From an uncultured Bacillota bacterium (lineage in GTDB: Bacteria > Bacillota_I > Bacilli_A > Erysipelotrichales > Coprobacillaceae): a DNA stretch of 64,000 nucleotides. The stretch covers positions 1-64,000 of the forward strand of contig CASETM010000080.1 in the NCBI GenBank assembly GCA_949290865.1, read 5' to 3'. Of this stretch, positions 42,164 to 47,779 are shown piece by piece (position 1 is the stretch's first letter; each line of letters starts with the position of its first letter). Made by a program: the position numbers and the translations under genes. Under the pieces are notes generated by a model. The model searched no databases and was not told the origin of the DNA. It was given only the letters and a program-made list of their open reading frames with translations.

Positions 42164-43009
42164 TCAATTCACCTTTTTAACAACAACCACATATGACAGA
42201 TCATCAAAATCAGCAGCAGCCTTCACTCTCACCAATGTCGTTGTCCCATCACTGTTGGTATATAATTTTTTTGCTTTTCCAATATATATGCCTTTTGGAC
42301 TTTTTCCATCTCCGCCTAAACCAGAAGTATAAACCTTAGCATCTTTTTCCAGTTTATCAATCTTGCTAAGTAATGTCATTTCCAGATAGCCATTATTCAC
42401 ATCATATCCTTCAATAAGGCCATAAATCGTTTCTTCCCCATTCAAGATCATAACCGGTATCTTGCTGGCAGGTTTTTCACATGTCAGCAAAGAAACCGTT
42501 GCCGTCAGTTCATTAACAGACGTTACTGTTCCAATCATTCCTTTCGAATCGCAGACAACCATTCCTTCTTCAATTTCACTTTGACTTCCAGAGTCAATGA
42601 TGATCTCATCATTCCAGTTTGTTTGATCTCTTGTCTGAACACCTGCAACTTTGGTCTTATATTCTGTAGGCAGATAATCTATTTCACTGATTTCTTTTAA
42701 TTTATTCATTTCAGATGTCAGAACTTCGTTTTCTGATTCCAGACTAACATATGAATCCAGCTTTTCTTTCAGCAATTCATTTTCATCATAGACATCCTTC
42801 AATTCATAGTATTCACTAAAAATACCGCTGACAAACTCTAGAGGCTTTTTAACGAGATAGTATTCAACAGTCTGGACACTTGTACTGAGAAACTTACCAA
42901 GGCTAGACTGATTTTTCCCTACAAAAAACGAAAACATACTGATCAAAATAAAAACGCTGATTATACCAATGATAATTTTCTGATTTCTTTTTTTTCTTCT
43001 ATTATTCAT
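42164..43009 (-). CDS. mreC: Rod shape-determining protein MreC
   Basis: A 281-residue cell-shape protein with one N-terminal membrane helix (QKIIIGIISVFILISMFSFF), a coiled coil (about 70-110, ENELLKEKLDSYVSLESENE) and two beta domains outside the membrane (RDQTNWNDEIIIDSGS, CDSKGMIGTVTSV, SGLGGDGKSPKGIYIGK). ATG 43009 follows AGAGGTGAT. mreB, which normally precedes it, is not here; radC stands in front. It has its own promoter (43032-43060). Confidence 0.95.
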   Translation of the reverse strand: MNNRRKKRNQKIIIGIISVFILISMFSFFVGKNQSSLGKFLSTSVQTVEYYLVKKPLEFVSGIFSEYYELKDVYDENELLKEKLDSYVSLESENEVLTSEMNKLKEISEIDYLPTEYKTKVAGVQTRDQTNWNDEIIIDSGSQSEIEEGMVVCDSKGMIGTVTSVNELTATVSLLTCEKPASKIPVMILNGEETIYGLIEGYDVNNGYLEMTLLSKIDKLEKDAKVYTSGLGGDGKSPKGIYIGKAKKLYTNSDGTTTLVRVKAAADFDDLSYVVVVKKVN

Positions 43010-43031
43010 ACCATCACCTCTAGTAACACTC

Positions 43032-43060
43032 ATTATATAGTCAATATCCAAAAAAATCAA
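43032..43060 (-). promoter_or_regulatory. Promoter of mreC-mreD-minC-minD
   Basis: TTGATT (43055-43060), 17-nt spacer, TATAAT (43032-43037); overlaps the end of radC. Confidence 0.75.
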
Positions 43061-43740
43061 TTCCCTTTACAATCGAAGAGATAATCAGAAGCAAAACTAT
43101 AAAAACAGTTCCTGCCAATGATCAGATGATCAATCAGTTCAATCTGCAGCTGCTGTGCCATCATTGATAATTTTTCAGTTATTTCTCGATCTTCCTGAGA
43201 AGGCTGAGGATTGCCACTAGGATGATTATGTATCAGAATAATACGGGTTGCACCACAGCGCAGCGTATGTAAAAAAACCTCTCTCGGTTCAAGCATAGAA
43301 GCTGTCTCGCTGCCGATAAATAACAGTTTTTCCATAATGACTTCTAATTTAGCATTCAAACAAAGCAGGATAACTTTTTCTTGTTTTTCAAAAAGCAGCC
43401 TGTTTCTGACCAGCTGATAGCCATCCATGGGATCATTGATAATGTATCTTTTCTCGCGACATTCCTGCATCCGTTTGGCCAGTTCAATACTGGCCAGCAG
43501 TTCAATGGCTTTCGCTTGTTTAATTCCTTTGATCTGAATCAGACGATGATAATCTACATCCTTCAGTTTACTGAAACCACCTATCTCTTCCAGCAGAAAC
43601 TGAGCAAGCTTCATGACAGACATGTCTTTATTCCCCGTTCGCAGGATCACAGCCAGCAGTTCCTGATCGGATAACGTTTCTATCCCATATTGAACAGCTT
43701 TTTCTCGGGGACGTTCATATAATGGACAATTCAGCATCAT
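43057..43740 (-). CDS. radC: RadC/JAB-domain protein
   Basis: A 227-residue protein with an N-terminal helix-hairpin-helix region (PREKAVQYGIETLSDQELL, LIQIKGIKQAKAIELLA) and a C-terminal JAB/MPN+ metalloprotease-like domain with HNHPSGNPQPSQED as the metal motif. The name is historical: a role in DNA repair is not supported, and the true activity is unknown. AAGGAG precedes ATG 43740, which overlaps the SPOR gene stop by 4 bp. In Bacillus mreB follows radC; here it is absent. Confidence 0.93.
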   Translation of the reverse strand: MMLNCPLYERPREKAVQYGIETLSDQELLAVILRTGNKDMSVMKLAQFLLEEIGGFSKLKDVDYHRLIQIKGIKQAKAIELLASIELAKRMQECREKRYIINDPMDGYQLVRNRLLFEKQEKVILLCLNAKLEVIMEKLLFIGSETASMLEPREVFLHTLRCGATRIILIHNHPSGNPQPSQEDREITEKLSMMAQQLQIELIDHLIIGRNCFYSFASDYLFDCKGN

Positions 43741-44114
43741 TTCAACTCCTTATATATGTTTTCATATTTTTTTTGACTGATTTCCGCTTCATATTGACTG
43801 TCTATCATATATTCCTTAACCACACAGGTTACACCTTTCTGTGACAGTTCTGCCGCAAGGCGATCTGCTTCATCCTGCTGTAAAACAATCTGAGCAATCA
43901 CGACATAATTATCATCCTGATAACAATATCCTTCATAGCCAAGTTCACTAAGCTGAGCAATGGTCGTGTCAGCATTTTCCTGCTGATCATATCTTCCTAC
44001 CTGAATAACAAAAATACTGATATCCTGTTTTAAGATTGTATCAAGATATAAAAAAACAAAAATATTCATCAGAATCATTGTTCCCGCCAGCAACAGCATT
44101 GCCTTTCTTTTCAT
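43737..44114 (-). CDS. Membrane-anchored SPOR-domain protein
   Basis: A 125-residue protein with an N-terminal membrane anchor (MLLLAGTMILMNIFVFLYL) and a short SPOR-like domain (about 33-100: IFVIQVGRYDQQENADTTIA, YCYQDDNYVVIAQ). SPOR domains bind denuded peptidoglycan at division septa. It occupies the place of spoIIB/comC in Bacillus, and SpoIIB itself is a SPOR protein, so it could be a small functional counterpart; that is inference. It is coupled to radC by ATGA overlap. Confidence 0.78.
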   Translation of the reverse strand: MKRKAMLLLAGTMILMNIFVFLYLDTILKQDISIFVIQVGRYDQQENADTTIAQLSELGYEGYCYQDDNYVVIAQIVLQQDEADRLAAELSQKGVTCVVKEYMIDSQYEAEISQKKYENIYKELK

Positions 44115-44146
44115 GATCTCACCTCATCACATCTTATGCAGGCACA

Positions 44147-44182
44147 AAAAGAATATGAAAACGAACCGTTTCATATTCTTTT
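44147..44182 (-). terminator. Terminator of the double-glycine peptide gene
   Basis: A perfect 14-bp stem AAAAGAATATGAAA / TTTCATATTCTTTT with an 8-nt loop, followed by T on the minus strand. It lies 18 nt past the peptide stop. Confidence 0.88.
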
Positions 44183-44199
44183 CGTGACTTTAAATACAT

Positions 44200-44358
44200 T
44201 TAACGCCATTCAATTGAAATAAGCTTTGGAATCGATACTCTGCCACCATTAGAAAAAAGCATCTTGTATACAGCTGCACCGATTACGATACAAAGAATCA
44301 ACGTTCCTGCACCACCTCCGGTTATTTCCATCTGTTGTACTAACTGTAATTCATTCAT
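44200..44358 (-). CDS. 52-residue peptide with double-glycine leader (bacteriocin- or pheromone-like)
   Basis: MNELQLVQQMEITGG is a leader of the double-glycine type (hydrophobic residues at the usual places and GG before the cut). The predicted mature 37 residues start GAGTLILCIVIGAAVYKMLF, a glycine-rich membrane helix, and end SNGGRVSIPKLISIEWR. AAAGGAGG lies 7 nt before ATG 44358; a longer frame up to 44502 runs over the valS terminator and is rejected. It is a free-standing gene closed by a strong terminator. Such leaders are cut and exported by peptidase-containing ABC transporters; none is in the window. Could be a class II bacteriocin, a signal, or a small membrane peptide. Confidence 0.62.
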   Translation of the reverse strand: MNELQLVQQMEITGGGAGTLILCIVIGAAVYKMLFSNGGRVSIPKLISIEWR

Positions 44359-44453
44359 CCTATTTCCTCCTTTTTTCTGGAAAAGACAGCCACTAACTTC
44401 CTCACTTATATATAAGTCAGCAATTCCAGAATTACTCTTTATTTTAAAATAAT

Positions 44454-44520
44454 CAAAAAAAGATATCAGTTTGAAGTGAACACCATTATTTGGTCGATTC
44501 ATTTCAATTCTGATATCTTT
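44454..44520 (-). terminator. Long hairpin terminator of valS
   Basis: AAAGATATCAG and CTGATATCTTT close a stem of about 20 pairs that continues through TTGAA/TTCAA and TGAA/TTCA with bulges around a 17-nt loop; a run of seven T follows on the minus strand. It starts 7 nt after the valS stop. Confidence 0.82.
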
Positions 44521-44526
44521 TTATCA

Positions 44527-47139
44527 TTACATATTCGCCAGTTTTTCTTTGACTGTCTGGTATTTAGAAGTATAATCTTCAAGTTTTTTTCTTTCACTGT
44601 CAACTTTTGCCTGAGGTGCTTTTGAAACAAACTTTTCATTGTTAAGCATATTAGTACAGCGTTTGATTTCTCCTTCAAGCTTCTTCAGTTCTGCTTCCAG
44701 TTTCTGCTTTTCTGCTTCCTTGTCAACATAGGCTCCCAGCTCAACAATCAGGGTGTGTCCACCATGAATCATCACAGTGGCGACATCTTTAGAATCATTT
44801 GTATTATAGCCAACACATGTCGCATTGCATAATTTCTTTAAATAAGGAACGAAAACATCAAGCAGCGTTTCTAAAGAACTGTCTTTTGTATCAATTGAAT
44901 ATTCAACTTCAATCGCATTTTTGATCGTATAATTGGCTCTGATTTCACGAACGCCTTTAACAATATCCATTAAATAAGTAAACTGTTCATTAATTTGACT
45001 ATCATTAAATGCTTCATTAACTTTTGGATATTCACAGATACAGATTGATTCTTTCAGATGCGGAATTGCCTGATAGATTTCTTCCGTAACAAATGGCATG
45101 AATGGATGTAGCATTCTTACAATGGCATTTAAGACATAAACCAATGTATGAACGCTGGCCTGTTTTTCTGTCTGATCTTCACTGTTTAAATGAACTTTCG
45201 AAAGTTCAATATACCACGAACAGAAATCATCCCAGATAAAATTATATAATGCTGTACCAACATTGACAAACTCATATTTATCCATGTTTGTATCCACTTC
45301 TTTAATGACATCATTCAAACGATTCAAGATCCATTTATCACACAGATTCAAATGATCAAAATTCAAATCTTCATAACGAATATCTTCGTCAATATTCATC
45401 AGTACAAATCTTGCTGAATTCCAGATCTTATTGATAAAATTCCATGACGATTCAACTTTTTCAGGAATATATCTTAGATCCTGTCCTGGTGCTGAGTTTG
45501 TTGTCAAGAAATAACGCAGGGCATCACAGCCATACTGTTCAATAACATCCATTGGGTCAACACCATTACCTAAAGATTTTGACATCTTTCTTCCCTGACT
45601 GTCACGAATCAAACCATGAATCAGACAGTCTTTAAATGGTCTCTGTCCCGTCAGTTCAATTCCCTGGAATACCATACGGGCAACCCAGAAGAAAATAATG
45701 TCATAGGCAGTAACCAGAACATCATTTGGATAGTATCGCTGCAGATCAACTGTATCCTGAGGCCAACCCAGTGTACTGAAAGGCCACAAAGCACTTGAAA
45801 ACCACGTATCAAGAACATCTTCATCCTGTACCCAGCCGTCTCCTTCAGGAGCAGTCAAACCAACATAGACCTCATCACCTTTATACCATGCAGGAATACG
45901 GTGTCCCCACCACAGCTGTCGAGAAATACACCAGTCATAGCAGTTTTCCATCCATTGTTTTAATGTCTTTTCAAATCTACCAGGAACAAAATTAACTTTC
46001 TTGTCAGGATCTTTTTGATTTTCCAGTACCTGCTGTGCTAGTTTATCCATTCTGACAAACCATTGTTTTGATAAGTATGGCTCAACGACACAATGCGTTC
46101 TTTCGCTATGTCCAACACTATGAACCATTGGTTCAATCTTGATCAGCAGATCAGCTGCTTTCAGATCTTCAACCAAAGCTTCACGACAAGCTTCTCTGGT
46201 CATGCCACAGTATTTTCCCGCATTTTCATTCATCGTTGCATCAGGATTCATACAGACAACACGGGGCAGCTGATGACGATTTCCAACTTCAAAGTCATTT
46301 GGATCATGAGCAGGTGTGATCTTTACGACCCCTGTTCCAAACTCAGGATCAGCATGGATATCACCAACGATTGGAATACGTTTATTAACAACCGGAAGAA
46401 TGACATACTGTCCAATCAGATCCTTATAACGTTCGTCTTTAGGATTGACTGCAACTGCGGTATCACCAAATAGAGTTTCTGGTCTCGTTGTTGCCACTTC
46501 CAGATAACGGCTATGATCTTCCAGATAATATTTCAAATGATAAAAAGCTCCTTCATCATCCTGATAGATAACTTCTTCATTTGATAATGCTGTCTGCTGA
46601 ATTGGATCCCAGTTAATGATCTTTTCACCACGATAAATAATTCCTTTTTGATAATAGTCAACAAACACTTTTGTAACGGCTTCATTTAAGCCTTCATCCA
46701 GAGTAAAACGTTCTTTAGAATAATCCAGTGAAAGCCCCAGTTTGGCCCACTGTTCTCTGATATTCTTCGCATATTCTTCTTTCCATTCCCAGGCTTTTTC
46801 CAGAAATCCTTCTCTGCCCAGATCACGTTTATTAATACCCTGTTTTTTCAGTTTTTCTACAACTTTAACTTCAGTAGCTATAGCTGCATGGTCCATTCCC
46901 GGAAGCCATAAAGCATCGTAACCCTGCATTCTTTTATAACGAATGATCATATCCTGCAAAGTTGTATCCCAGGCATGACCCAGATGCAGTTTTCCAGTAA
47001 CGTTAGGTGGTGGAATAACAATCGCATAAGGTTTTTTGGATGTATCCCCAGCTTTAAAGTATTCTTTATCAAGCCACTGCTGATACTTTCCTTTTTCTAC
47101 GCTTAAATGATCGTATTTACTCGCTAATTCTTTCTTCAT
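44527..47139 (-). CDS. valS: Valine-tRNA ligase
   Basis: A 870-residue class I aminoacyl-tRNA synthetase charging tRNA-Val. The HIGH motif is [16 protein letters not shown], the KMSKS motif is [14 protein letters not shown]; the editing (CP1) domain, anticodon-binding domain and C-terminal coiled coil ([16 protein letters not shown]) are all there. ATG codons at 47142 and 47139 both follow AAAAGGAGG; 47139 gives the better spacing. It overlaps the upstream membrane protein gene by 23 bp and shares its T-box leader, so it is induced when tRNA-Val is uncharged. Confidence 0.97.
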
Positions 47140-47779
47140 CATTATCCTCCTTTTCAATGAAACTGTCTTTATGTTCTCTTATGTATTCTCCTAGTTTTTC
47201 TGCCAAATTTGATGATCGAATCATCGCCAACAGTTCATTGGTAAAATCAGCAAAATTATAAGTTGCATAGTCACTGTCTTCATCAATATCATCTTCCTGG
47301 TCATTTTCAATAAGGATTGCCAGTTTTTCGGCTTCTTCCAGCAAATGAACAATATTATGACAATTATGAATTTCCAGGGCTTCTTTATAATATGGTCGAT
47401 AGTCACAATAAGGTTCCATAATAAAGAAACTATGAACTGATCCTCTTCCTCCTTCTAAAGAACTTTCCAGTTGAAAGAGCGTATATACCATGAGTTCTTC
47501 ATGACTCAAATGGGGAATAAGATTCCCATCATAATCATCATCTTCAAATAATCTGTCTTCTTTAGCCTGAATATGATAGATGACTGCACGGGTCAGATCA
47601 ATTGTTTCCGTCTGATCAAACACTTCACTGGTCAAATGTGCAAACAGATTTTTTTCTTCTTCCATTTTCGCCATTCTTTCTTTTTGACTGGCACGAATGA
47701 TCAGAAATCTTCTCCCAAAAGTAATGATCAAAAATGCACAGCAGCACGCAAATAACACCCATACAATAAAATAATCCAT
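47117..47779 (-). CDS. Unknown membrane-anchored protein in the valS operon
   Basis: A 220-residue protein with one N-terminal membrane helix ([19 protein letters not shown]) followed by a basic stretch and a long acidic soluble domain (about 40-220) containing [39 protein letters not shown] and [20 protein letters not shown]. No family is recognised. ATG 47779 follows AAGGAGG by 7 nt. It is the first gene after the valine T-box and overlaps valS, so its level tracks valine-tRNA charging. It is absent from this place in Bacillus. Confidence 0.75.

Follow-up and report, generated by a model that had tools for sequence, protein, structure and literature searches.

Almost every double-glycine (GG) leader or C39 protease is interpreted as part of a bacteriocin or pheromone system. 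The window, the 64,000-nucleotide stretch of DNA analysed here, carries a gene for a short peptide with a leader of this type among housekeeping genes, in the order valS – peptide – SPOR protein – radC – mreC – probable mreD – minC – minD. The locus raises the question of which protease would mature such a peptide, and what the product would do for the cell.

The peptide gene and its family

The gene encodes the 52-residue peptide MNELQLVQQMEITGGGAGTLILCIVIGAAVYKMLFSNGGRVSIPKLISIEWR (table 1). A strong ribosome-binding site and a 15-residue leader ending in ITGG had been described in the first-pass annotation, and both are confirmed by reading of the open reading frame. In the window species the leader has Leu at position -12, Gln at -7, a hydrophobic residue at -4 and the glycine pair at -2/-1. 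The mature part has a membrane helix (precursor residues 17–35), a single Cys and the C-terminal end GRVSIPKLISIEWR. The AlphaFold model of the peptide (pLDDT 76, last residues below 60) supports only the leader helix and the membrane helix. A terminator had also been annotated after the gene. A strong stem-loop is indeed present there, although the terminator scan did not flag it. Because this stem-loop and a second one towards valS separate the gene from both of its neighbours, the peptide gene is probably a transcription unit of its own.

Table 1. Coordinates of the peptide gene, its parts and its neighbours in the window.
Feature	Position	Strand	Evidence or remark
valS, conserved upstream neighbour	44527..47157	-	Pfam, synteny
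Stem-loop between valS and peptide gene, probable valS terminator	44457..44522	-	z -6.7
Ribosome-binding site AAAGGAGG	44366..44373	-	7 bases 5' of ATG
Peptide gene, 52 codons and stop	44200..44358	-	ORF read, homologues, pN/pS 0.36
15-residue leader MNELQLVQQMEITGG, M1–G15, ending in ITGG	44314..44358	-	
Mature 37-residue peptide: membrane helix and conserved tail S..GRVSIPKLISIEWR	44203..44313	-	
Stem-loop 3' of peptide gene, probable terminator	44140..44189	-	-22.5 kcal/mol, z -6.8
SPOR-domain protein, downstream neighbour in many relatives	43737..44114	-	PF05036
radC, most constant neighbour across families	43057..43740	-	PF04002
mreC, then probable mreD (no Pfam match, named from position), minC, minD	42164..43060	-	PF04085

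The gene is not an orphan, as had been supposed. Homologues are found in 40 of the 43 genomes and 18 of the 20 genera of the window's GTDB family, which belongs to the Erysipelotrichales and includes Faecalibacillus, Thomasclavelia, Massilimicrobiota and Sharpea. Carrier genomes have one or a few copies, usually a single one. Given this distribution and a pN/pS of 0.36 over 14 homologous peptide genes, the reading frame is more than a chance one. An alignment of 31 homologues is invariant at G14, G15, Y31, K32, S36, G39, P44, E50 and W51, so that the conserved GG site for which the first-pass annotation had proposed a search is present; most of these positions remain nearly invariant in a wider set. 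The tail, which had looked conserved in the one sequence, is so across families and orders. The single Cys, noted at the same time, is real in the window peptide but not conserved, relatives often having Tyr in its place.

The reach of the family was followed in two ways. (i) A pattern scan of a genome collection of 84,980 species matched 35 contigs, 33 of them from a group comprising Faecalibacillus, Thomasclavelia, Massilimicrobiota, Stoquefichus, Longibaculum, Eggerthia, Kandleria, Sharpea, Beduini and unnamed relatives. The two remaining matches, in an archaeal metagenome-assembled genome and in Flexithrix, look like chance. (ii) With a profile of the mature core, the family was detected in 105 of 316 Erysipelotrichales genomes and in about 50 sampled genomes, most of 0.8–1.8 Mb, from other orders of the class. 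A profile of the full-length precursor had under-counted the neighbouring family f2, and the mature-core profile put this count right. The peptide gene stands beside radC almost everywhere across families, and it adjoins valS both in the window's family and in other orders.

The annotation as a new peptide family in a housekeeping locus holds: no profile of Pfam, NCBIfam, PHROGs or PDB matches the peptide, no curated bacteriocin family of Pfam or NCBIfam does so, and no description of the family was found in the literature. There is no bacteriocin cluster at the locus, where the neighbours are valS, the SPOR gene, radC and mreC. In the loci read, those of the window and its relatives, no sensor kinase or receptor adjoins the peptide gene.

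Local variants of this arrangement occur. In members of genus g11 (L023, L024, L027, L029) the peptide gene is repeated in tandem, with three to five copies per array, some of them diverged. In Thomasclavelia (L015, L047) the first peptide is directly followed by another GG peptide, different in kind and about 45 residues long; the tail of this second peptide ends in Arg and is without the Trp motif. Similar adjacent hits are present in G025, G034, G035 and G038–G041.

Leaders and C39 proteases across lineages

A double-glycine leader is defined by a GG-type cut site together with hydrophobic positions -12, -7 and -4 (PMC10885120, PMC6959990), with the consensus L(-12)..E(-8)L(-7)....GG (PMC6959990). 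Leaders of the peptide family follow this rule, at -7 mostly outside the window's own family: there, position -12 is hydrophobic in 27 of 27 leaders, -4 in 26 of 27 and -7 in 5 of 27. In f2 all three positions are hydrophobic in 17 of 17 leaders, and they are kept even with GG replaced by GK, GL, GR, GM or GS. The precursors of f2 are either 55–58 residues long with a leader or 37–44 residues long and leaderless. These short forms begin at the cut-site position, with a good ribosome-binding site there. In many of the leaderless genes an in-frame stop codon lies only a few codons 5' of the start, and a hidden leader is therefore not possible in them. Two adjacent leaderless family peptides, possibly a pair, were observed at L223 (genus g75).

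A single C39 ABC transporter is present in the window genome, a protein of 687 residues encoded between an aminotransferase gene and ybeY. It is a full PCAT, with the C39 domain (PF03412), membrane domain (PF00664) and ATPase (PF00005) in one chain, and provides the genome with a C39 protease having catalytic Cys, His and Asp. The ATPase motifs are intact in the exporter of the window's family. Carrier genomes were to be searched for a C39 protease according to the first-pass annotation, and a match is present in 41 of the 43 family genomes, as a rule one C39 ABC transporter per genome. In the loci checked, the exporter gene lies directly upstream of ybeY-cdd-era-recO. A second C39-like gene of the window genome (contig C56, L034 4487-5200, 237 residues) encodes a separate protein and was rejected as the partner. 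This protein has an N-terminal membrane segment, and its gene lies beside a two-component system.

The partner is not a PCAT in f2 and in other orders. All 17 leader-type f2 genomes with a readable ybeY locus have a stand-alone C39 gene of about 111–127 codons there. No C39 gene was found at ybeY in leaderless f2 genomes; two of these, G186 and G198, have ordinary PCATs of 719–759 residues, not at ybeY. Upstream of ybeY, genomes of f8 and f19 usually have a gene for a protein of about 390–410 residues that combines a C39 domain with additional hydrophobic segments and has no match to an ATPase. Of 29 genomes from other orders, 22 encode a C39 domain with a membrane domain at ybeY, among them a shorter form of 170 residues (G639, f25), and six of the remaining seven have a C39 gene elsewhere. 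PF03412 alone missed several of the stand-alone genes, which were recovered with a profile of our own and reading in all frames. All 22 aligned C39 domains keep the catalytic Cys and His. A point against cleavage is that the N-terminal Gln of the oxyanion hole is missing from the stand-alone domains. The closest solved relatives of the partner are LahT150 (6mpz), PCAT1 (4ry2) and ComA (5xe8).

Comparative evidence across these lineages supports the pairing of peptide and C39 well. Among 66 genomes, 44 have both leader and C39, 21 have neither, one has the leader only, and none combines a leaderless peptide with a C39 of this kind. On a tree of these genomes built from RadC, YbeY, Era, Cdd and MreC, with G264 left out, leader loss takes four changes, compared with an average of 18 for shuffled labels, and C39 absence takes five (G420 adds one). 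The leader was thus lost about four times, each time with C39 absent; for one of these losses (G242, G267) the nearby internal tree support is moderate. The joint loss is a correlation over about four events. In the genomes of g64, G182 and G277 the protease was looked for after the leaders had been seen, and it is present in all readable ones. No C39 was found in G420 and G594, both with a leader (ybeY is not readable in the latter), nor in G264, where the N-terminus of the peptide is atypically long. Three further cases of absence are either consistent with the pairing or carry no information on it. In G017 the valS-SPOR interval is without the peptide, and the exporter at ybeY (L155 3986-5608) is without Walker A and signature motifs. 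In G019 the catalytic Cys and Walker A are missing from the exporter, and the assembly does not include the radC locus. In G029 the radC locus is not readable.

Proposed maturation and role

The gene probably encodes a precursor that a dedicated C39 protease matures into a conserved miniprotein, which would span the membrane once and serve a cell-autonomous role. (i) The precursor leader would dock on the C39 cysteine protease. (ii) The protease would cut after the glycine motif in the cytosol, yielding a mature peptide of 36–42 residues. (iii) This product would consist of one membrane helix and a conserved tail of 16–20 residues that ends near Trp. In the window genome, the ABC exporter encoded beside ybeY would provide the protease as its N-terminal domain, and this exporter may in addition translocate the peptide or insert it into the membrane; the intact ATPase suggests real export in the window's family. 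In other lineages, the protease would act without an ABC exporter, or the peptide would be made leaderless.

The joint losses of leader and C39, together with leaderless forms that start at the cut, make it probable that maturation yields a single-pass membrane peptide whose tail is conserved, and that the ybeY-locus C39 carries out this maturation. Conservation of peptide and protease at fixed housekeeping sites throughout a large branch of gut bacteria, and the loss of the protease where the leader was lost, speak for a function that the cell maintains rather than for a transient antibiotic peptide. We infer a cell-autonomous role linked to the envelope, cell shape or division, as opposed to killing or signalling. 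The first-pass annotation had expected export by a transporter encoded elsewhere. The C39 ABC transporter was found elsewhere in the genome as predicted, but ABC export is not the common denominator across lineages: since the partner may be a stand-alone C39 or a C39-membrane protein without ATPase, or the peptide leaderless, that common denominator would be cleavage.

A bacteriocin or pheromone role had been implied, in which the ybeY-side exporter cuts the class II peptide and secretes the 37-residue core to act on other cells. The GG leader and the full C39 ABC exporter with ATPase motifs in the window's family would suit such a role, and the tandem copies of g11 and the second adjacent GG peptide of Thomasclavelia look like diversification. 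However, the gene is usually single copy, stays at the same locus and is under purifying selection across families, with a tail that is shared between orders; homologues without a leader or without an ABC exporter exist; and no immunity, sensor or accessory gene stands beside the peptide gene of the window. A secreted bacteriocin or pheromone is unlikely, and less likely than a membrane miniprotein. It is more improbable still that the ybeY-locus C39 serves another substrate and that the peptide is a membrane protein with a coincidental leader. Although peptide and C39 genes are unlinked, and a mollicute (G447) has the exporter and no recognisable peptide, this explanation would leave to chance the roughly four joint losses, the agreement of the leader with C39 recognition positions and the start of leaderless forms at the cut site. 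A small hydrophobic toxin of a type I toxin–antitoxin pair would likewise be short, with one membrane helix and a strong ribosome-binding site, but conservation in mostly single copy, synteny over orders and a leader with a protease partner make it very improbable.

A matured membrane miniprotein would have partial parallels in known systems. The family resembles the double-glycine peptides of PCAT exporters (ComC/ComA, CtA/PCAT1 and the LahT substrates) in its leader with hydrophobic -12/-7/-4, its GG-type cut site and its C39 partner. It differs from them in its housekeeping loci, class-wide synteny and unlinked peptide and protease genes, in a protease that often has no ATPase or membrane domain, and in a peptide that is sometimes leaderless. 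A precedent comes from EbfG1–4 and PteB of Synechococcus elongatus, where small GG proteins serve a purpose other than antibiosis that depends on the cysteine of C39 (PMC4997328); the present family would be comparable in having a non-antibiotic role. The Ebf proteins, in contrast, are secreted biofilm proteins with their own cluster and no class-wide distribution, and homology is not claimed.

Mollicutes and wider significance

The best NCBIfam match of the exporters of both the window's family and G447 is NF045998 (Mbov_0121 family peptidase domain-containing ABC transporter, mycoplasmas). The window family's exporter scores 304 bits, below the model cut-off of 500 bits, and no peptide substrate is known for NF045998 (PMC6609329). 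In G447, which reads TGA as Trp, the exporter (671 residues) lies just upstream of ybeY-cdd-era-recO-glyS. It is a full C39 ABC exporter (L361 15026-17041), with an ORF for a 117-residue membrane protein between it and ybeY; after valS, this genome has genes resembling comEA and comEC. No recognisable peptide homologue occurs in the roughly 790 of 1076 kb of G447 read, and the mollicute link is thus a lead only. The first 400 kb of the Mycoplasma-like G536 contain neither exporter nor peptide. Gene 0401 of JCVI-syn3A is, we presume, also next to ybeY. It encodes a C39 domain, and no GG peptide is known for it (PMC6609329). We suggest only tentatively, as a doubtful extension, that Erysipelotrichales and mollicutes share an ancestral maintenance system of their branch of the Bacilli, in which the ybeY-locus C39 would mature the valS-radC membrane miniprotein for envelope or cell shape and of which JCVI-syn3A 0401 would be a relic.

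The GG leader and C39 machinery described here appear as a conserved housekeeping pair, to which C39 proteases without an ABC exporter also belong, and the parallel losses act as a natural experiment. With the peptide family, C39 genes that would otherwise be orphans gain a defined candidate substrate. The PCAT-ybeY neighbourhood of the mollicute G447 is relevant to the orphan C39 transporter that a minimal cell has retained, and the pairing offers a direct way to ask what the role of that transporter may be.
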